DNA of 64,000 nt, from the NCBI RefSeq assembly GCF_020804225.1, contig NZ_WJBI01000004.1:69578-133577 (forward strand). The letters are read 5' to 3'. Origin of the DNA: Methanosarcina sp. DH2. Lineage in GTDB: Archaea; Halobacteriota; Methanosarcinia; Methanosarcinales; Methanosarcinaceae. Under the pieces are notes generated by a model. That model saw only the letters and a program-made list of their open reading frames with translations. It made no database searches and was not told the origin of the DNA. Numbering within the stretch: the stretch's first letter is position 1; each line of letters starts with the position of its first letter. Shown here piece by piece: positions 1 to 60,621 of the stretch. A program made the position numbers and the translations under genes.

Positions 1-303
1 GTTGAAACTTTAAATATTAAAGGAATGAAAAAGAACCACAAATTAGCACAGGCTATTAGTGATTCAGCATGGTATTCTTTCGTGCAAAAATTAACATACA
101 AAGCTGAATGGTCTGGTAAAACAGTTTTGAAGATAGGTCAATGGGAATCATCTTCAAAAACTTGTAACGTTTGTGGTTATAAGCATCCAAATTTGACAGA
201 AGATATTAGAGAGTGGCTTTGTCCTTCCTGTAATGTTTTGCATGATAGGGACATTAATGCAGCTATCAATATAAAGAAATTCGCCGTAGGGACTACGGTT
301 TGA
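1..303 (+). CDS. tnpB: TnpB (IS200/IS605-family OrfB) C-terminal part, cut by the window edge
   Basis: TnpB is the RNA-guided RuvC-type nuclease of IS200/IS605 elements. The reading frame is open from base 1, so the gene begins outside the window and an ATG at 25 is internal. The first codons read V-E-T-L-N-I-K-G-M, matching the RuvC-II segment that carries the catalytic Glu. A zinc ribbon follows with CNVCG and CPSC pairs, and then HDRDINAA, which holds the RuvC-III Asp. All late catalytic and zinc residues are present, so this end looks intact. The TGA at 301-303 ends the frame. No tnpA is visible; whether one lies upstream cannot be judged here. Confidence 0.9.
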   Translation, partial: VETLNIKGMKKNHKLAQAISDSAWYSFVQKLTYKAEWSGKTVLKIGQWESSSKTCNVCGYKHPNLTEDIREWLCPSCNVLHDRDINAAINIKKFAVGTTV

Positions 304-405
304 GCCTGTGGACCGGGAAAAAACGGCAACCGCCTAGTATGAAGCAGGAAGCACCTTCCTCAAAAATCTGAGTTTACGAAGATTTTAGGTAGGTGTAGTT
401 CACGC
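290..405 (+). ncRNA. Probable right end / omega-RNA scaffold of the tnpB element
   Basis: TnpB elements carry a guide RNA that overlaps the tnpB 3' end and runs to the element's right end. Directly after the stop lies a GC-richer stretch with a small perfect hairpin (AGGAAG at 346-351, CTTCCT at 355-360, 3-nt loop). It ends in a GGTAGGTGTAGTTCAC-like sequence near 390-405. Composition changes to host-like sequence after that. The exact right end is inferred from position only. Confidence 0.5.
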
Positions 406-413
406 TTACTCAT

Positions 414-2084
414 TTACTCACTTGCGAAAAGCTTGACAAATTCGAACTTTGTCACATCAAAAATGCCCCGATCTCCCAGTTTAAGTTCAGGAATTACCAG
501 AAGTGACATAAATGCAAGAGTCATAAAGGGCGATTTTAGCGTTGTTCCCAGTCTCCGGGCTTCTGCATTCAGCAGGTGGTACCGGGAAGCTACCTCTTCT
601 CCATTTCGTGTGCTCATAAGGCCTGCAACCTCGAGTGGAAGATCAAGCAAATGGTCTGCAGTCCCAACAACGATTCCTCCTCTGTTTTCCACAAGCCTGT
701 TGACAGCTTCAACTATATCCTTATCGGTAGCCCCGACTGCAATGATATTGTGACTGTCGTGGGCAATGCTGCTTGCAATAGCGCCTTTTTTCAGGCCTAT
801 ATTTTTTATGAAACCGATCTGGACAGGATCATTTGCATACCTGCTCAGGACAACCATTTTCAAAATATCCCTTGAGGGATCTGAGACTATATTACCGTTT
901 TCTACCTCTGGCATAGCCAGTTCCTGGCATGTAACCAGTTCTCCGTCCCTGGCAACTATTACCCTGATTTTTTTCATTTGCTCCCTGATTATTTGTTCCT
1001 TTGTTTCTCCTGCAGGAGGCACAGACAGTTTTACATCGTCAATTGAAATTTTGTTCCTATTAAAAACATTTTTAGCAGAAACTTTTTCCACAGGGAAAAG
1101 AACCTTCCCATTATTATAAACACAGTTTCCATTAATAAAAGTGCTCAGCACATTGAAGGATTTCAGGTCGTCTACAATGATGAAATCAGCAGCATCCCCC
1201 TCGCGCAGCAGCCCGACATTAAGCCCGTAATGCTCCACAGGATTGATCACAGCTGCCCTGATAAGGTTATAGATATCAATCCCTTTTTCCTGTCCGCGCC
1301 GGATTAGCTTATCGATATGCCCTTCGTGTATCAGGGTATCCGGATGGGAGTCATCTGTGCACAGCATAACCGATTCGGGATATTCATCTATCAGGCTGTA
1401 CAGAGTTTCAAAATTTCTGGCTGAACTCCCCTCCCGGATCAGGACCTTCATCCCTAGCTTTATTTTTTCAACTGCTTCTTCATAAGTAAAACACTCGTGA
1501 TCTGTGGAAATCCCTGCTCCGATATATTTTTGCAGATCGTCTCCTCTCAAGCCAGGCGCGTGCCCGTCAATGACTTTGCCGTACTTTTTAGCTGATTCCA
1601 GTTTTGTCATTACCTCAGGGAACTCTGAGATCACACCCGGGAAATTCATCATCTCGGAAAGGTAGTACAGGTCTTTCCTTGCCAGCAGCCTGTCTACAGC
1701 TTCGGCATCAAGGACTGCCCCCGCTGATTCGAAGGGTGTAGCCGGCACACACGAGGGCACCCCAAAAAAGACCTTCAGCGGGGCTTTTTTTGAATCCTCA
1801 AGCATGTAGACAATGCCCTCTTCCCCCATAACGTTTGCAATCTCATGAGGGTCACTGACAACTGCAACCGTGCCTTTTGCAACAGCCATCCGGGCAAAAA
1901 CCGAAGGCACGGTCATAGAACTTTCTATATGCACATGGGCGTCTACGAGTCCTGGCAGGATGTACTGCTCATTATCGTGCTTTTTCTCTTTTATGCTAAT
2001 GATCTTTCCGTTTTCAACGGTAATCTCACCTTTGAACTGCCGCCTGGAAACGGCATCAACAATGATCCCCAGGTATTCTTTCAT
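414..2084 (-). CDS. ade: Adenine deaminase
   Basis: Hydrolyses adenine to hypoxanthine and ammonia in purine salvage; cytoplasmic. The 556-residue length is normal for the AdeC group of the amidohydrolase superfamily. Visible motifs are the metal-binding HxH in DAHVHIESS (His50, His52), the DPHEIANV segment after the first barrel strands, GHAPGL, TDHE, and the CTDDSHPDTL segment with an active-site Asp. The C-terminal half carries the domain typical of AdeC, with AVGATDKDI and GTADHLLDLPLEVAGLMS. The gene is divergent from serC and shares a 312-bp upstream region with it. No damage is visible. Confidence 0.93.
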   Translation of the reverse strand: MKEYLGIIVDAVSRRQFKGEITVENGKIISIKEKKHDNEQYILPGLVDAHVHIESSMTVPSVFARMAVAKGTVAVVSDPHEIANVMGEEGIVYMLEDSKKAPLKVFFGVPSCVPATPFESAGAVLDAEAVDRLLARKDLYYLSEMMNFPGVISEFPEVMTKLESAKKYGKVIDGHAPGLRGDDLQKYIGAGISTDHECFTYEEAVEKIKLGMKVLIREGSSARNFETLYSLIDEYPESVMLCTDDSHPDTLIHEGHIDKLIRRGQEKGIDIYNLIRAAVINPVEHYGLNVGLLREGDAADFIIVDDLKSFNVLSTFINGNCVYNNGKVLFPVEKVSAKNVFNRNKISIDDVKLSVPPAGETKEQIIREQMKKIRVIVARDGELVTCQELAMPEVENGNIVSDPSRDILKMVVLSRYANDPVQIGFIKNIGLKKGAIASSIAHDSHNIIAVGATDKDIVEAVNRLVENRGGIVVGTADHLLDLPLEVAGLMSTRNGEEVASRYHLLNAEARRLGTTLKSPFMTLAFMSLLVIPELKLGDRGIFDVTKFEFVKLFASE

Positions 2085-16537: not shown

Positions 16538-17215
16538 ATCTATTAACTCCTCACTTCAAATTTGCCCTGTATATGGCAATTTTAATCTGAGCAAATTTAG
16601 GAAACTTTTTAATATCTTCCGGGATTATCAAAATTTACCATTAATTCCGTTAGCTCTTGACTACAGTCAATTTAAAACCCCAAAAATAATAAAAAGACTT
16701 TAATTTATCTTTCCGTCTTTACTTGTTACATTCTTTCCAAATTTTTATTTATCATCAAATCACTTCTAACTATTTAAATTTTTTGAAACACTGTGGCTTT
16801 TAATTCGTTTATTCGTTTTTATATTTGAGGTTTTACCAAAAACTACAAAAATGTTTTAAAGTCTAAAAACAAATAAAAAATATTGAGGAAAGCCCGAAAG
16901 AGTTATGTTCCTTTCCAGTATCCCCCGGTACATAGGAATCAACATCTTCCAGACAATTCTTATTCACATACCTTACCGATTATTCCTATTGGTTATTTCT
17001 CACTCTTTTGACCTATTAACTCCCTTACCTTACAATACCCAATTATCCATTTTGTTATTTTAAATTAATTCTACAAAAAATAATTTCTTAACAAAAGTTA
17101 CTGCCACATAAAAAATTATAAAATCGAACAACAAATTAATATTAATGACGTTTTTTATTACTTTCTGGAATCTTCAAAATTTAGTCGTGTCCTTGAGTTA
17201 GTGATCAATTCCAAA
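16538..17215. other. AT-rich gene-free region
   Basis: Very AT-rich sequence without a credible gene. Near 17226-17241 the sequence GAGCCTATCCGAAAAG resembles the terminal repeat of some IS elements, but no matching partner end or transposase was found. Confidence 0.4.
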
Positions 17216-52812: not shown

Positions 52813-54183
52813 TTACTTTACTACTTCATATCCGGCATTCTTCCATGCAGTCATGCTCCCAAGGACATTATACACATCACTATAGCCGTTTTTTTTCAGA
52901 ATCGAAGCCGCTATACTGGAACGCCGGGATGAGTCACAGTATACAACTATCGGGGAGTCCCTCGGAACTTTACCCAGATTCTCTTCCAGATGTCCAACAT
53001 ATATATGTTTTGCTCCTTCGATATGCCCTTCGTCCCATTCTTCATTCCCTCTAACGTCCAGCAATATCATTTCCTCGTTCCTTTTGATTTTATCTTTCAG
53101 ATCCTGGACAGATATAAGGTTTAAGCTGTCTACAGGTAAGGCTTTCATGTACCAGGCCGCAATTCCGCCATTCAGGAAACCTGCTATATTGTCATAACCA
53201 ATTCTGAACAGATACCTGATAGCAGCTTCCAGTTGCTCCTTTTCTTCGAGTACCAGAATTATGGGCTTATCATAGGGCAGTATCCAGCCGGCAAAAAAAG
53301 GCAGTCCTCTCAGCCAGATGCCGTATGAACCCTGTATGTGTGCTCCTCCAAAAGAATGGGACATGCGTGTATCTACAACCATAGCTCCTTTATCCATCTC
53401 TGCTTTGAACTCTTTTGGAGAAAGCAGTTCAGGCACTGGAAGTCCCTTTAGTAGAGGAGGGCCCTGCAGGTTATACTCCTCCATTTTCTCAAAGTAAGGC
53501 GGATATTCGAGCTTCTCTTCAAGCTTGAACTTTATAAACTCTTCTTTTTCAATTTTCTGGAGAGCAGGATTCTGGATACTTTCCAGTCCCAGAGTACTGT
53601 ATTCCCTTTTGGAGATAGCTCCTCCGCAAAGCGAACCCGCACCATGTGCAGGGCAGAGTATTACCCCATCTCCCAGTGGGAGAATTTTGTTAAAAATGCT
53701 GTCGTACAGGTTTGCTGCCAGCCTTGGAGCTTCTTCCGGTCCATAGAGATCAGTTCTTCCAACATCGCCTATGAACAGGGCATCTCCTGTGAAAACCATT
53801 AAAGGCTCTTTACCTGTATCGGGATCTGAGATCGTATAGGACATGCTTTCGTCGGTATGCCCTGGAGTCTGTAGAGCAGTCAGCTTCATAGAACCAAAAC
53901 CGAACTCCTTCCCTTCATAAAGAGGATTTCCGTATTTGAAATCCACTCCCTGGCCGTGGTAGATCTCAGCACCTGTGAGACTTTCCAGTTCAAGAGAGCC
54001 AATTACATAATCTTCGTTTCTGTGCGTTTCAAAGATATGTTTTATTTTCATTCCCTCTCTTCTGGCAAGATCAAAATAGATCTTACAATCCCTTCGAGGA
54101 TCGATAACAACGGCTTCATCTCCAGAACCGATGAAATAAGAAAGATGAGCCAGCCCTTCAGACTTAATGCGCTCGAATATCAT
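52813..54183 (-). CDS. Metallo-beta-lactamase-fold hydrolase with two rhodanese domains
   Basis: 456 residues from ATG 54183 (MIFERIKSEGLAHLSYFIGSG) with AGGGG upstream; the frame is open 12 codons further. The MBL domain (about 1-230) has ETHRNEDYVIGS, where the usual HxHxDH is altered (only the first His and the Asp remain), then TPGHTDES, FTGDALFIGDVGRTDL and CPAHGAGS. Rhodanese 1 (about 255-345) lacks the active Cys; rhodanese 2 (about 365-450) has it in YCDSSRRSS. The fusion resembles persulfide dioxygenase-sulfurtransferases of sulfur metabolism, but the altered metal motif makes the activity uncertain. Confidence 0.85.
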   Translation of the reverse strand: MIFERIKSEGLAHLSYFIGSGDEAVVIDPRRDCKIYFDLARREGMKIKHIFETHRNEDYVIGSLELESLTGAEIYHGQGVDFKYGNPLYEGKEFGFGSMKLTALQTPGHTDESMSYTISDPDTGKEPLMVFTGDALFIGDVGRTDLYGPEEAPRLAANLYDSIFNKILPLGDGVILCPAHGAGSLCGGAISKREYSTLGLESIQNPALQKIEKEEFIKFKLEEKLEYPPYFEKMEEYNLQGPPLLKGLPVPELLSPKEFKAEMDKGAMVVDTRMSHSFGGAHIQGSYGIWLRGLPFFAGWILPYDKPIILVLEEKEQLEAAIRYLFRIGYDNIAGFLNGGIAAWYMKALPVDSLNLISVQDLKDKIKRNEEMILLDVRGNEEWDEGHIEGAKHIYVGHLEENLGKVPRDSPIVVYCDSSRRSSIAASILKKNGYSDVYNVLGSMTAWKNAGYEVVK

Positions 54184-54265
54184 GCTAAACCCCTTCAGCA
54201 ATATTCTACGATTTTGCAATAAATTTTTGGGATAACTGTAGAAATTCAGATATAGTACGGAATTA

Positions 54266-54325
54266 TACCTCTATGGACGATACCTCTATGGACGATACCT
54301 CTATGGACGATACCTCTATGGATTA
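54266..54325. repeat. 15-bp tandem repeat, 4 copies
   Basis: Unit TACCTCTATGGACGA, three perfect copies plus one with the last bases changed (GGATTA). Lies upstream of the MBL/rhodanese gene. No function evident. Confidence 0.9.
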
Positions 54326-54740
54326 TACCCTCTATTATACCCTCTGTAGAATTATATTCTGTGTCTGTCAAGATTTATCCGGTATCGGCTGATTTAATTT
54401 CCCCTTACACTAAGTATACAACTGCATGCCTCATATGTTTTTTTGAAGCATTTTTTTAAGATAACTTTTTGAATGCAAATTTTATCTATTTTCCTTCTTC
54501 TGTTGCAGCCATGGAATCTTTTATCTAAATACCTGCTTTAATTTTACTTTCTCTGAATTTTTATTCATTTATCGGAGAAGAGAGCTGACTAAAAAAAACT
54601 GTTATCGCTTGTAATTCTCGCATGCAACCGGTCTTTCATCTGAGAAAAACATAATTTCTGGTTTTGAAATATTTTGAGTGGAAATATATTTCGCTAGCGG
54701 GCAATTTTTGGTATAATTAATTTAAAATAATTAAGAGTCA
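54326..54740. other. Gene-free region upstream of the RNA candidate
   Basis: AT-rich spacer without recognised features. Confidence 0.3.
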
Positions 54741-54921
54741 ATTATATATTTGTAACTTGGAGTGAACAGATAGAACGAGTAAGTAACGGGTATGAATAAG
54801 TAAATAAAAGAATTGCCCGAAAGCCATTGATCCTGTTCCTGACCAATACGCTTGGGGGAGCGTATCTCTGGAACAACTGTATCGGGGGCTACAGTGGGAA
54901 CATAGCGCTTTCGGGCTTTTT
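54741..54921 (+). ncRNA. Candidate small structured RNA with two GGGGG-loop hairpins
   Basis: A perfect 10-bp closing stem pairs 54815-54824 (GCCCGAAAGC) with 54907-54916 (GCTTTCGGGC), directly followed by TTTTT (54917-54921). Inside are two hairpins. P2 pairs 54834-54839 with 54870-54875 (TGTTCC/GGAACA) and then ATACGCT 54846-54852 with AGCGTAT 54859-54865, loop TGGGGG. P3 pairs ACTGTA 54876-54881 with TACAGT 54890-54895, loop TCGGGGGC. Together this is a three-way junction of about 102 nt. A TATA-like box ATTATATATT (54741-54750) sits at a suitable distance for a start near 54770. I recognise no known RNA family. Confidence 0.7.
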
Positions 54922-55299
54922 CTTACTCTATCTCTGCTATACTTTTCTTCCTAATCTTTTTTCCTGATTTTTCATTCCTGACTTATTTTCCTTATTTTTT
55001 CTTCCTGACTTATTTTCCTTATCTTTTCTTCCTGACCGTTCACTTTTCTCTCTCCTGGCCTCTTAAACTGATTTTTCCGTCCTTTTTCTCTGAATTTCTC
55101 ATTACCTTCCTGTCTGCTCATCTGTCCTGTTTTCACCAAATTTATCGTCCATCCTGATAAGGACAGTGAGAGTTCCACAATATCTAGAATGCTGACGAAT
55201 CTTGAGGGACTAAAACTATAATTCTATGAAGCGTAATTCTATGAAGCGTAATTCTATGAAGCATAGCTCCATAAGACGAACGAATATTGGCGGGATGAT
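54922..55299. repeat. Short tandem repeats
   Basis: Two tracts: TTCCTGACTTATTTTCCTTATTTTTTC-type units at 54946-55030, and AATTCTATGAAGCGT-type 15-bp units (three copies) at 55220-55265. No gene. Confidence 0.8.
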
Positions 55300-55932
55300 T
55301 TGAAAGCTTCAACGACTCGGGATGGTCGGCTGGAAGTGAAACGTTTTTGTAAATGGGTATGGGGGAGCCTGCTATTCCTTATTATCTGGATAGGCAGAAT
55401 AATAGCAAAAATTCTTGATATCTGCATTTTTCCTGAGGTTATGGACATTTTATGGAAGAACATGAAACCCAATAGCCGGAGTCTGACTCCTTTAGAGGAA
55501 CAGGAAGCTCGAAAAGTATTTGGGAACAGCATCAATTACCAGCAGGTGCGTATTGACGAACATTCGCTAATTGCCTGGATCGGGGCAAAGGTTAATAATT
55601 GCTGGGGTATGGGTATCACCACCTTTCATACAATCAATTTTAATAAAAAGATTAACACTGAGGCAGGCAATTCGAGCATGAAATGGCTTATTCACGAATT
55701 AGCCCATGTAGCACAGATGGAATATGTCGGCTCAAGGTACATGGTCGAAGCATTTTATGCACGAGCAACAGAAGGATACAGGTACATTCCCGGTGCAAAA
55801 CCTTATCTGTGTAACTATAACCGCGAACAGCAGGCTTCAATTGCTGCAGACTATTATAGTGCACTCGTTTCAGGCCGCTCAACAGCTGCTTATGATCCCT
55901 ATATTACAGAACTGCAAGCAGGAAAGTTATAG
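55300..55932 (+). CDS. Membrane-anchored HExxH metallopeptidase-like protein (DUF4157-like)
   Basis: 210 residues. A hydrophobic N-terminal segment (WVWGSLLFLIIWIGRIIAKIL, about residues 19-40) may anchor it. The core resembles DUF4157/eCIS-core peptidase-like domains: RKVFGNSINYQQVRI, then MKWLIHELAHVAQMEYVGSRY with the zinc motif HELAH (about residues 132-136), and a late EQQASIAADYY helix. The catalytic Glu and both His are present. Proteins of this group are peptidase-like toxins or housekeeping zincins; the target is unknown. The gene stands alone. Confidence 0.75.
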   Translation: MKASTTRDGRLEVKRFCKWVWGSLLFLIIWIGRIIAKILDICIFPEVMDILWKNMKPNSRSLTPLEEQEARKVFGNSINYQQVRIDEHSLIAWIGAKVNNCWGMGITTFHTINFNKKINTEAGNSSMKWLIHELAHVAQMEYVGSRYMVEAFYARATEGYRYIPGAKPYLCNYNREQQASIAADYYSALVSGRSTAAYDPYITELQAGKL

Positions 55933-56119
55933 ATACAGTTCTGTCCTGATTCTTCTCTTTCGATTCTCACAAAAACATCTTTTCCAATAGAGAACCGAAT
56001 CATACAATAAAAGGAAGAAAAACAAAAAAAATTATGGAGTAAGGGCAGAATCCGTATGAAAGAGGTCGGACCCTACTGTTTATTCCATAACCTTCCTGCT
56101 TTAGCCATAATTCCTGCTT

Positions 56120-57358
56120 TTATTCCGAATCCCCAACAGTTATTGAATATTCAAAATTTTCCGTATTTTTCGGGAGAATCGTAAGTTCCCAATCTCCGAT
56201 TGCTCCTGGTATCGTATACGATTCAGTATAATACCTGTCGTTATCTTGATAGATCGCGTCATTATTTGACCATACAGGGAAATTACTCCATCCGACATTT
56301 ACACTGCCTCTTTGCGTTATTTTTACAAGGCTCATATCAACAGGGCTGGAGTCGTATTTCAGGTTCAATTCAAACGATGGATCCTCATTTTTCGGTGGGT
56401 AACGCAGCCACGAATCCGAGCCGTATGCATAAGTAGAAATCTCAATTGTTATCGGGTCTGCAGTCCTGGTTTTGAAGGTTTTTGCATAAGGAACTGAAGG
56501 CTGCTGTCTAATTATGAAGTTCAGGTCTATTTGCGGGTCATATCCATAATTTTCTTTCCCGTCAACATTCATTTTGATGTACCCATTGTAAGATCCTGCA
56601 GCACTTTCCGGAACAGAGACCCGGATCACCATGTCAGCGATTTCACCTGGTGCTAAGACTGAAGGTGCAGAGATTTCGATTGCATCGTCGTCAATACCGG
56701 ATTCACCAAATGAATAATCATATCCGTTTACTTCCGGATCGATGGTAATATTTCTGGCTGCCACGTTTTTGATTTTCGTCGTGTACTCATATTCCTTTCC
56801 AGCCTCAACGGTATCATAGATGTAATATGTCTGAAGCTCAATTTTCTGATAAATCGGGACCATTACAGAAAGGTACATTACATTGACATACTGAGGGTAG
56901 TATTCTTCTGGATCTAATATTATATCGTCTGCAAAGGCAATATAAGTTTGATAGTTCTCTTCATCCGCATCTTCAGGAATACTAACTTCAATGGTAAATT
57001 CCTGTTCTGCGCCTGAATCTACCGTTACGTTCGCTGGGGATATGGTTATCCAGCTTTCGTCAAAATTATAATAACTCTCAGGCACGGCTACAAGTTTCGG
57101 TTCCACATAAAGCGCTTTCTTACCATTGTTTCTAAAGCTTACATCGAAACTGCTGCTCTCTCCCTGTTGCAGGTACAGGTCATAGTAACTTGGATTTATA
57201 TCGTGTATTATGGTTTTATTCGAAACCGAGGTATAAGCTGGTTCTGCTACTGATTCTCCAACATCCCCTGTTTGAGCAAATGCAGCCGGTACCGATCCCA
57301 GGCAAAGCAGTATCCCTAAAAATAGGGACGCTGCCCTCAATAATGTACTTTTACTCAT
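56120..57358 (-). CDS. Secreted cell-surface protein with Ig-like domains
   Basis: 412 residues from the ATG at 57358 (MSKSTLLRAASLFLGILLCLG), a signal peptide preceded by an AAGGAG site; 11 codons further upstream are in frame but unlikely. The mature part is beta-rich: a first domain around YDLYLQQGESSSFDVSFRNNG and SWITISPANVTVDSG, a second around YEYTTKIKNVAARNITI, then a C-terminal domain ending ILPKNTENFEYSITVGDS. The NPCBM/COG1470-like pattern (tension between 'normal' and 'negative' Ig-like folds) is common in archaeal surface proteins. No membrane anchor is visible. Function unknown. Confidence 0.75.
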   Translation of the reverse strand: MSKSTLLRAASLFLGILLCLGSVPAAFAQTGDVGESVAEPAYTSVSNKTIIHDINPSYYDLYLQQGESSSFDVSFRNNGKKALYVEPKLVAVPESYYNFDESWITISPANVTVDSGAEQEFTIEVSIPEDADEENYQTYIAFADDIILDPEEYYPQYVNVMYLSVMVPIYQKIELQTYYIYDTVEAGKEYEYTTKIKNVAARNITIDPEVNGYDYSFGESGIDDDAIEISAPSVLAPGEIADMVIRVSVPESAAGSYNGYIKMNVDGKENYGYDPQIDLNFIIRQQPSVPYAKTFKTRTADPITIEISTYAYGSDSWLRYPPKNEDPSFELNLKYDSSPVDMSLVKITQRGSVNVGWSNFPVWSNNDAIYQDNDRYYTESYTIPGAIGDWELTILPKNTENFEYSITVGDSE

Positions 57359-58080
57359 ATTTCTGACTCCTTCTTTGTGTGTTACATTCAAAAACTATTT
57401 ATTCCAGTCTGTTTTATTTTGCATTTCCACCATGGCTAAATTCCATAATCTCATGATTTCTGGACTTCATTCAGGAATACAGCCTATATAACCAACGCAC
57501 TCAAGATCCCCTTGCAATGCTTGCCTTATCACAGGAAGAATACGGTTGAGCTGAGAAACCAGCAGTGCAAAGCAATTTTACTCTCTGCAAATGGTCCTTG
57601 TAATCATATCTCAGACATAGGACAATTTTACAAAGTGCGTAAGTTCAATAAATGAAGCATGTCCCTGTATAAAATACTTCTTACTTTGACAAATCTTTGT
57701 GTTTCACATGAAAAGCTCAAAAAAGAAAGAATGTAAAAAGATTCATAACTGAATTGAATAATGCAAATAATACCTTTTAAGATGTGACTTTAAATCTCAA
57801 ACAACAGACAAATAATAGACTTTTGAACAGTGCTGAAGCTTCAAACCAAACCAATGTCAGTATATAGAATACCTACTCGTATACTACATATTAATGAAGT
57901 TTTATCAATAACGGTTTAACACGGTTTACAGTGATATTTTATTGATGACACTTCTGAGAGAATATATTTTTAATTCTGTGACAACATATTTTCGATTTTG
58001 TGAGAATATGTAGTTTCGGTTAAGAACATGTACTTCGGTTGTACGTTGCGGCGTTTTTATGCATAAAGATTATTCTAAGA
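57359..58080. other. Gene-free region with an IS-end-like motif
   Basis: GTGCGTAAGTTC at 57636-57647 resembles the inner end of the MITE at 52668-52784, without a matching partner end. Near 57960-58040 the words TTTTCGATTTTGTGAGAATATG and similar recur. No gene. Confidence 0.45.
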
Positions 58081-58494
58081 TTATTCGTCTATTCTTTTTT
58101 GAGGTGACTTTCGGGAAGAATTTCTTTTTATTTCTAAAAGTGCCCATAACTTCTCACATTCATCAGCTGTCAGCCCGATCTGTTTGACCAGATATTCTTC
58201 GGTTTTTTCATTTTTTATAGTTCCTTTTAGCAGGTTGCTTACCGTATCCCTGTGGTGCCCTGTTATCCTTTCAATGCTCCGTATCCCGTTTTTTTCGAGA
58301 AAAAGCCGATATATCAGCTTTATTTCAGTTCCGGGCAGATGTTTACGATAAACAGCCGTACCTATCGTCTCCATAAAAAATTTCCCGCAATGCTTGCAGT
58401 AGTATCTCTGATGTCCGGTCTTGTACTTTCCACGTTTTATTACTGCTCTTCCTTCCATCCGGAGATAATATTCGCACTCCGGATTCTGACACAC
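58081..58494 (-). CDS. IS1-like transposase N-terminal fragment (zinc finger plus HTH)
   Basis: 137 residues. The start has CQNPECEYYLRM and YKTGHQRYYCKHCGKFFMET, an InsA-type zinc finger, followed by a helix-turn-helix (NGIRSIERITGHHRDTVSNLL). The rest is short and charged, without the DDE catalytic part of a full IS1-family transposase. It may be an InsA-only gene or a truncated transposase. The start is GTG at 58494; the frame remains open further upstream. Flanking inverted repeats were not found. Confidence 0.65.
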   Translation of the reverse strand: MCQNPECEYYLRMEGRAVIKRGKYKTGHQRYYCKHCGKFFMETIGTAVYRKHLPGTEIKLIYRLFLEKNGIRSIERITGHHRDTVSNLLKGTIKNEKTEEYLVKQIGLTADECEKLWALLEIKRNSSRKSPQKRIDE

Positions 58495-59370
58495 TACCTC
58501 ATCTGTTTTTCTGGTTATACAATTCCCTCCCTGAGTCCCGATTTAACTATCTGGTCTATTCCATCATAAATATAATTCATAAATATAATTTCTCATAAAT
58601 GTCCAGAAATTACCTATATTAATATTCCATAACGGCTTTTCTTCCGGCTGTGAAGTAATATACACATGCTGGATCCGGACAAACAGTTTAGTGTAATTTA
58701 CTAACTGAATTAATTTAATTAGCAAGTTTTGGATTTATTCCTATATTTACTTTACTAATTTCAATGTCTACCAGAAATAGATTTCTATAAAATAAGTCAA
58801 TGATCACTTCAAAAAAAAGAAAAAATTTTAAAAAATATTTTCAATGATCCTTTATGGAAATCCATAAAACATTATTTTTCATATGGAAATCACATATAAG
58901 AAGGCTTTGCGCAGACATAAGAAGTTAAGGATGGAAAAGAGATTGAATGTCACAATCATTGACATGAGAATCTGATATTTCCCTGCAGGAAGGAAGAATA
59001 TAATTACCATCTCTGGTTGAGACGATCACAAATGCCGGCGAAAGAACATGTTTCTATATAATCCACTAACATGACCCTTAGTGTGCAGTGAATTTAGGTT
59101 GTTAATGTGTAATCAAATTGTTATCATTAATATACGGTATAGATTTCAGTACACAACTTAACCAGAGAAATGAGTTCATTTGTTGGTCAGGGCATAAATT
59201 ATGTTCACTCTTGAACATCCGACTGGTTGAATCAATGCATAATTAGTGAGACCGTCCTGAAATAATAGGATAAGCGGTATGAATGATACGGTCATAGTCT
59301 ATTTAATTTTTAAAAAAAACCAGTATTCATAATTAAATTTGATCAACCGACGACTTTACAGCCCGCTACT
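58495..59370. other. Long gene-free region
   Basis: About 880 bp, AT-rich, no gene, tRNA or clear repeat recognised. Confidence 0.35.
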
Positions 59371-60621
59371 TTACAGCCCGTTTGCTCCACATTTTATACT
59401 TATTTCAAATTCGGTACCTCTATCCCTTTTTAAATGAATCTCACTATCTAACTGATCTACCAGAATATTTACAAGCTGCAGGCCAAGTGTATCCGAATTT
59501 TCCGGGTCGACTCTTTCGGGAATACCAATTCCATCATCTGATACGATCAGTGTGTATCCGATACATGTTTCGGTAAATTCTTCTTCATTATTTCTCGGCC
59601 CATTTCTGGTTTTTTCTTCTCTAAGTAGCTTAATTTGGATTTCTCCTTTTTCCCTATTTGGAAATGCATACTTGAAGGAATTGGAAACAAGTTCGTTAAC
59701 AATCATCCCTAACGGAACCGCAATATCCATATCAAAGAAAACGTTTTCCTCAAGATCCAGATTTAAGCTGACATCAGCATTTCCAAGACTGTATGTTTGA
59801 AGAAGGTTCTCAACAAGTTTCTCAAGATATGCCGAGAATTTCAGTTTGTCGATTTCTCCGCCTTCATGCAGTTCCTCGTGGATAAGGGCAATAGACATTA
59901 CTCTATCCTGGCTTTCCTTGAAAGCTTCAAGAACTTCCCACTTCTCAATAGATTCCCTGTTGCTTAACTTTTCAGCCTCAAGATCCAGAAGGGAGGATAT
60001 TACTTGCAGGTTATTTTTGATTCTGTGATGAATTTCCTTTTTACGTGCAAGTTCGGCTTTTGCGAGGATCTCTTCATTCTTCTTCTGTTCTGTCAGGTCT
60101 GTGACCACTATGCACCAGGCGTTCGGAAGTCCCTCGGTCTGTAATGAGCTACTGGAAAGGTACACGGGCAAAGATATACCACCGCCAGTCAGGAGATTGA
60201 TCTCTCCTTTGCCTTTCTCGTGCTCAAGAAATGATTTAAAGATTACAGCGTTCTCAGGCGCTATGTATCGATAGACAGATGTGCCTACAATGGTCGGTAA
60301 AGGCATTCTCAGAAGTTCTGCAAAATGACGGTTACAGTAAAGGATGGTGCCATCACAGGCGAGGGTAGCAGTGCCTTCATTCATAGTTTCCACCAGAACA
60401 CGGTATGCGTGGTCGGCACTATCTACGGTAAAGATCATTTGCCCTTTGGATCCAGGTATCACCAGGGCATCCAGATCCCCTTCACTTATGGCTCTCTTGA
60501 GTTCTTCAGCCTCCCCCAGACGTGTCCTCAGGCTTTCGATCTCGTCCCGCAAGCCACGATTCTCATCTAACAGTGCTTGATACGATCTGGACTCCTGGTT
60601 TTTTGCCAATTTCGAACTCAT
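59371..60621 (-). CDS. PAS sensor histidine kinase of the HisKA_2 type, kaiB operon
   Basis: 416 residues from ATG 60621; a TTG 7 codons upstream is less likely. Order: coiled coil (about 10-45, LDENRGLRDEIESLRTRLGEAE), a PAS domain (about 70-185), HisKA_2 with HHRIKNNLQVISSLLDLEAEKL (phospho-acceptor His near residue 199), and HATPase with NELVSNSFKYAFPN, DDGIGIP and LGLQLVNILVDQL. Catalytic motifs are complete, no membrane segment. It follows two kaiB-like genes on the same strand, 42 nt after the second, so probably one operon. The PAS domain and KaiB proteins may set its input. Confidence 0.9.
   Translation of the reverse strand: MSSKLAKNQESRSYQALLDENRGLRDEIESLRTRLGEAEELKRAISEGDLDALVIPGSKGQMIFTVDSADHAYRVLVETMNEGTATLACDGTILYCNRHFAELLRMPLPTIVGTSVYRYIAPENAVIFKSFLEHEKGKGEINLLTGGGISLPVYLSSSSLQTEGLPNAWCIVVTDLTEQKKNEEILAKAELARKKEIHHRIKNNLQVISSLLDLEAEKLSNRESIEKWEVLEAFKESQDRVMSIALIHEELHEGGEIDKLKFSAYLEKLVENLLQTYSLGNADVSLNLDLEENVFFDMDIAVPLGMIVNELVSNSFKYAFPNREKGEIQIKLLREEKTRNGPRNNEEEFTETCIGYTLIVSDDGIGIPERVDPENSDTLGLQLVNILVDQLDSEIHLKRDRGTEFEISIKCGANGL

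Follow-up and report, generated by a model that had tools for sequence, protein, structure and literature searches.

A multi-copy family of structured G-loop small RNAs in Methanosarcina and its complementarity to a second, repeat-bearing small RNA

INTRODUCTION

Bacterial RNA sponges, such as SroC, 3′ETS and AgvB, sequester small RNAs (sRNAs) via short complementary seeds, and CsrB/RsmX-Y-Z, LhrC and Qrr exemplify regulators that form multi-copy sRNA families or repeat a G-rich hairpin-loop motif within each RNA. No archaeal RNA sponge was found in the literature covered here. In Methanosarcina mazei, 199 intergenic sRNAs have been counted (PMC5867862, Table 1). Among the described ones, sRNA154 is described from a single locus, has the NrpR operator GGTA-N6-TACC and carries a 20-aa leaderless ORF (PMC3177094, PMC5867862); the 191-nt sRNA162/sRNA171 contain three stem-loops and a 39-nt linker and are located next to ArsR regulators (PMC3510493); and sRNA41 masks ribosome-binding sites (PMC5867862).

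Here we describe an RNA gene in a 64,000-nucleotide stretch of Methanosarcina sp. DH2 DNA, referred to as the window; it belongs to a family of small structured RNAs that had not been catalogued before. This multi-copy family, including the window copy, is designated G-RNA, and C-RNA designates a second RNA, in which a 10-bp GC stem closes an unpaired loop with about 3–9 CCCC(C)AA repeats. Membership of sRNA154 was rejected because its operator and leaderless ORF are absent: the NrpR operator GGTA-N6-TACC was not found from 53665 to 59413, even when 1 mismatch was allowed, the 20-aa leaderless ORF (nt 4–66) was not found at the window RNA, and the sole plus-strand ORF of at least 20 aa overlapping this RNA starts at 54827, inside the stem. 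Membership of sRNA162/sRNA171 was rejected as well, since neither three stem-loops with a 39-nt linker nor ArsR/MM2442 neighbours were found.

RESULTS

The window RNA folds into a three-way junction in a gene-free stretch

The features of the window copy and its surroundings are as follows.

54662–54709, plus strand: upstream promoter region, with the TTTTGAAATATTTTGAG element at 54662–54678 and an imperfect inverted repeat (consensus of 102 promoters)
54712–54732, plus strand: core promoter TATAATTAATTTAAAATAATT, with the TATA box within 54720–54729 (common to 102 of 104 copies)
54750–54814, plus strand: predicted transcribed leader with a conserved GGAG-type segment (from the distance to the TATA box)
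54815–54916, plus strand: structured core with P1, the inner helix and the three-way junction (fold, compensatory change)
54815–54824/54907–54916, plus strand: basal stem P1, GCCCGAAAGC/GCTTTCGGGC, perfect 10 bp
54831–54833/54897–54899, plus strand: inner helix, UCC/GGA
54835–54874, plus strand: hairpin 1, comprising P2, P3 and the loop (covariation; loop complementary to the C-RNA repeat)
54835–54839/54870–54874, plus strand: P2, GUUCC/GGAAC, below hairpin 1
54846–54851/54860–54865, plus strand: P3, AUACGC/GCGUAU (covariation)
54852–54859, plus strand: loop 1, UUGGGGGA, 8 nt, exact complement of the C-RNA repeat UCCCCCAA
54876–54895, plus strand: hairpin 2, with P4 ACUGUA/UACAGU at 54876–54881/54890–54895 (covariation)
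54882–54889, plus strand: loop 2, UCGGGGGC, 8 nt; UUGGGGGA at this place in most paralogues
54917–54921, plus strand: U-tract TTTTT, presumed terminator (from the sequence; a T-rich 3′ flank is common to the copies)
52813–54219, minus strand: metallo-hydrolase/rhodanese gene, divergent neighbour with its 5′ end at 54219 (reading frame)
55300–55932, plus strand: unclassified 210-aa frame with a HELAHVAQ motif (HExxH-type)
16881–17071, minus strand: second, degenerate G-RNA copy (cmsearch 48.8 bits, E 3.7e-8)

A first-pass annotation of the sequence had described a 10-bp outer stem closed by a T-run and enclosing two hairpins with five-G loops, all of which were found, and the inner helix and P2, absent from its list, are added here. 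The segment 54807–54921 folds at −48.4 kcal/mol versus a mean of −31.1 for shuffled sequences (z −4.9), and 0 of 200 shuffles were as good. The gene-free setting that had been noted was confirmed as well: the copy is intergenic and lies alone between 54219 and 55300, where the nearest notable frames start, of which the 55300–55932 frame has no Pfam and no NCBIfam match. Short tandem repeats, whose units resemble ATACCTCTATGGACG and AATTCTATGAAGCGT, flank the RNA gene on both sides (54262–54340 and 55205–55260). An array copy at an unlinked locus on contig 25 (C25) shares 93 percent identity with the window copy. By alignment, the core of the degenerate copy (16881–16962) has lost hairpin 1 and kept the GGGGG of loop 2, and its promoter core GAATTAATTTAAAATA is located at 17056–17071 (G000:C28:86633–86648).

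G-RNAs occur in all Methanosarcina genomes searched

A DNA search of 40 genomes yielded matches in 20 of the 24 other Methanosarcina genomes, often several per genome, and in 0 of 15 genomes from other genera of the order. With the covariance model R1, built from a folded alignment of 28 copies (A1), G-RNA was identified in 31/31 Methanosarcina genomes at 1–21 copies each, e.g. 15 in the window's own genome, 21 in G012 and 11 in G014, and each of the four sister-genus (g15) genomes had 4–6 copies. R1 detected no G-RNA in the other 77 genomes of Methanosarcinaceae, and when 15 of the 77 were searched again at higher sensitivity, a single chance-level match (E 0.78) came up. A pattern scan of named genomes retrieved 32 loci, almost all of which carry the label Methanosarcina or Methanosarcinaceae; a contig from Kiritimatiellia fitted the pattern and was not matched by R1. 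Thus the family is present in every Methanosarcina genome searched, yet has no Rfam model: Rfam 15 assigned 0 families to the whole window at the gathering threshold, and the best sub-threshold matches were at chance level. No earlier description of the family was found in the literature covered here, and the 199 intergenic sRNAs counted in M. mazei (PMC5867862) may already include some of its members. In several genomes of the two genera, arrays of 2–6 copies are located upstream of a URO-D/MtaA-like methyltransferase homologue, such as L074 (4 copies), L073 (3 copies) and L081 (6 copies), for which a local regulation of this homologue is possible.

Compensatory changes support the fold and assign the strand

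In A1 (28 rows), 19 of the 38 pairs showed double-sided compensatory change versus 10.1 in shuffles, and pairing dropped from 93 percent to under 50 percent once the partners were slid. In A2 (108 distinct rows), which, unlike A1, had been fitted to the covariance model, compensatory change was determined in 29/33 pairs and 346 cells, versus 22 pairs and 110 cells in shuffles, none of which reached the observed count. Within P1, such changes affected 7 of 10 pairs in A1 and 9 of 10 in A2. Conserved pairing in Methanosarcina had been set beforehand as a test of the RNA, and it was borne out by these pairs together with the conserved G-loops. As G-U cells far outnumbered A-C cells (701 versus 51), the plus strand is the RNA strand. 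The stems vary, and the two 8-nt loops (UUGGGGGA for the first, UUGGGGGA or UCGGGGGC for the second) rank with the best-conserved parts of the RNA.

A dedicated promoter precedes the G-RNA copies

A TATAATTAATTTAAAATAATT-like TATA region was identified in 102 of 104 distinct copies, 70–115 nt ahead of the core except for one outlier at 210, and a conserved region with TTTTTGTTTGAAAACAATTTTT and TTTGAAATTTTTTACG lies upstream of it. Aligned on this TATA region, the 102 promoters gave the consensus TTTgAAAttTTTta.g...tattTTTtgtttgaaaacAAtTTTT, and at the window copy the imperfect inverted repeat ends in CAATTTTT (about 54687–54709), directly upstream of the TATA region. In the window's own genome, TAATTAATTTAAAATA occurs 13 times at no more than 1 mismatch, at least 10 of them at G-RNA copies, so that the promoter is almost private to the family. 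Because this promoter is common and dedicated, the copies probably constitute one regulon and are expressed together. In about 100 relatives the conserved box corresponds to TATAATTAATTTAAAATA (54712–54729) and not to the TATA-like box of the first-pass annotation, which probably referred to about 54741–54749. Judged from the distance to the conserved box, transcription is predicted to start near 54750–54756, about 25 nt past TTTAAAATA, and to yield an RNA of about 165–175 nt; the promoter and start proposed earlier were off by about 20–30 nt. The earlier view of an independent structured RNA rather than a plain terminator was supported, given its retention in 31/31 Methanosarcina genomes, its covariation and its own promoter.

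The G-loops are complementary to repeats in a second conserved RNA

The complement of the loop UUGGGGGA used as a query led to C-RNA, the starting point being three sites within 33 bp on contig 26 of the own genome.

C26:134155–134279: C1, with repeats in an open hairpin loop and the stem GUGAGCGGGC/GCCCGCUCAC

The C-RNA fold has a z of −5.9. A separate TATA box (CTATTTATA) immediately precedes C1, in which the CCCC(C)AA unit is usually repeated three to five times. The longest array, nine CCCCCAA units in the C1 of G015 (L119, G015:C1:21982–22071), represents a minisatellite-like change in the number of predicted binding sites. Two tandem WWCCCCCAA sites 0–12 nt apart were matched 33 times across the 31 Methanosarcina genomes (20/31 positive), versus 3 matches of the reversed control pattern. 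All but one of these loci are the same conserved RNA, the exception, L109 (G012:C134 near 11795), being itself a G-RNA variant; this G-RNA-like locus has four to five successive G4–G6 runs in hairpins (locus positions about 200–430, plus strand).

With scores of at least 79 bits, the model R2 detected the C1 type in 26/31 Methanosarcina genomes, in all four g15 genomes and in g14. The C-type hairpins of other genera were all weaker, those listed scoring no higher than 47 bits, so the clade with the repeat-bearing C1 is nearly the same as that with G-RNA. Weaker paralogues (C2 near C1, and a C3 type bearing ACCCCCCACUCCCC) and hairpins of related form occur in many Methanosarcinaceae genera. 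The C3 type has the same GUGAGCGGG stem; it and its relatives are found in L162 (665–773), L163 (731–835), L164 (732–837), L168 (681–786), L165 (712–821) and L176 (675–766), and in four genomes C3 lies roughly 20–26 kb from the ACDS operon. No clear preference of the C-RNA loops for the ACDS operon start sites was seen. Rfam reported nothing besides tRNAs on the C-RNA loci, and C1 has no Rfam family.

For each loop, UUGGGGGA and a UCCCCCAA repeat were computed to form 8 bp worth about −14 kcal/mol, the bases flanking the G-run (UU..A) included, and the UCGGGGGC loop of the window copy to form only 5 bp with the repeat at about −11 kcal/mol. Two conserved putative sRNAs, the transcription of which we infer, thus show exact complementarity between loop and repeat. 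In line with the earlier suggestion that the RNA may act on C-rich sites, a conserved C-rich partner RNA was found. UCCCCCAA showed no overall enrichment in the own genome (116 sites versus 103 for the reversed sequence), and some 20 of these sites are the antisense strand of G-RNA itself, with about 95 others, so broad C-rich mRNA targets were rejected. TTGGGGGA, a candidate ribosome-binding site, was roughly 2-fold commoner upstream of ATG than its reversed control; we claim no target from it, as the genes behind it in G014 are incoherent and many sites start no real ORF.

G-loops decay in two genomes lacking C1 and C2

In G010 and G017, both without C1 and C2, a G4 run is missing from 10 of the 14 G-RNA copies while their stems persist; where C1 is present, it is missing from 1 of 87. 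This loop tally is biased by some loci having been retrieved via the GGGGG pattern, and the loss in the two genomes may be one evolutionary event. Conversely, C-RNA occurs without G-RNA in g14 and many other genera, and the C-RNAs are the older RNAs, part of an older Methanosarcinaceae family. Loop loss without C1/C2, together with C-RNA lacking G-RNA, suggests that G-RNA acts on C-RNA. The correspondence varies among genomes: G005 combines two C1 copies with only one G-RNA, which is degenerate; G001 and G018 have intact G-loops next to C1 runs of mostly 3–4 C; and no intact C1/C2 was detectable in G012 (21 copies with intact loops) or G024 (G-loops also kept), both fragmented assemblies, or in G011, an assembly of 60 percent completeness.

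DISCUSSION

On balance, we lean toward G-RNAs being base-pairing sponges (or antagonists) of C-RNAs, and other readings of the same loci have to be weighed against it. If the copies were a dispersed repeat or mobile element of the MITE or REP kind with no RNA function, their dispersal, tandem arrays and near-identical unlinked members (window and C25, 93 percent) would follow readily; however, the compensatory changes with strand-specific G-U pairs, the promoter kept in 102/104 copies, and arrays retained ahead of the same URO-D gene in both genera speak of selection on structure and promoter, which largely refutes this reading and makes it exceedingly improbable. Hardly better placed is the view that the window RNA is nothing more than a terminator or the cis-regulatory leader of a neighbour gene. 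The U-tract end and the tandem copies upstream of the URO-D methyltransferase homologue in several genomes would fit it, but we rejected it, as each copy has its own promoter and its own end, the window copy stands alone in its gene-free stretch, and copies elsewhere have unrelated neighbours.

A more serious, though still unlikely, candidate is a protein sponge of the CsrB/RsmZ type, in which a protein would bind the GGGGG loops and be titrated by the many copies. Two loops of the same core in each RNA, many co-regulated copies, and near-invariant loops on variable stems are all in line with it, and against it stand the decay of loops in the two genomes missing C1/C2, the conserved UU..A flanks and the independently found complementary RNA, which protein binding alone would not lead one to expect; moreover, the annotation of neighbouring genes offered no candidate binding protein, and we know of no CsrA in the G-RNA setting. 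Somewhat more doubtful again is that G-RNAs regulate mRNAs with C-rich sites directly, or that C-RNA is a decoy titrating the G-RNAs. Some of the about 95 further UCCCCCAA sites could be mRNA targets, but the near-equal counts of UCCCCCAA and its control, with about 20 sites being G-RNA antisense, the essential confinement of tandem sites to C-RNA, and the occurrence of the older C-RNAs without G-RNAs all weigh against it.

For the sponge reading, in which G-RNA pairs with C-RNA, we propose that the window gene, itself among about 15 paralogues, would produce a structured non-coding RNA of roughly 170 nt, and that each intact G-RNA would present two 8-nt GGGGG-core hairpin loops (UUGGGGGA) on a three-way junction. 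These loops could form kissing contacts with the UUCCCCCAA repeats left unpaired in the C-RNA loop (C1 and its neighbour C2), and the kissing complexes would block and titrate C-RNA, thereby releasing its targets, possibly G-rich ribosome-binding sites. Changes in repeat and copy number, such as the nine sites of G015 and the 21 copies of G012, might set the titration level. Whether these steps add up to an archaeal RNA-sponge network, with co-regulated G-loop RNAs in all Methanosarcina titrating repeat-bearing C-loop RNAs, we regard as evenly poised. If the pairing with C-RNA is true, it would be an RNA–RNA antagonist network in Archaea, and as C-type hairpins occur across many Methanosarcinaceae genera, a more general methanogen control mechanism may lie behind them. 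Since Methanosarcina has working genetics, loop swaps and deletions are directly feasible.

Compared with known systems, G-RNA is similar to sRNA154 in being a Methanosarcina intergenic sRNA of about 130–170 nt with two loops contacting partners (predicted for G-RNA), whereas sRNA154 is described from one locus and the G-RNA family is multi-copy and without the NrpR operator. It shares with sRNA162/sRNA171 the genus and paralogues with common promoters, and differs from them by the three-way junction with G-loops and by neighbours other than ArsR/MM2442. C-RNA might pair with ribosome-binding sites as sRNA41 does, a likeness drawn from the description of sRNA41 and not from its sequence. G-RNA has the paralogues, conserved structure and common promoter of a multi-copy regulatory sRNA family; as in CsrB/RsmX-Y-Z, LhrC and Qrr, there are several co-regulated paralogues or a repeated G-rich loop motif, and unlike them G-RNA has no Rfam match and has an RNA partner carrying the exact complement. 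Like SroC, 3′ETS and AgvB, it would base-pair with and titrate another sRNA, as predicted from the loops, and in contrast to these it is archaeal, encoded by multi-copy stand-alone genes, and displays two similar loops facing a repeat-bearing partner.
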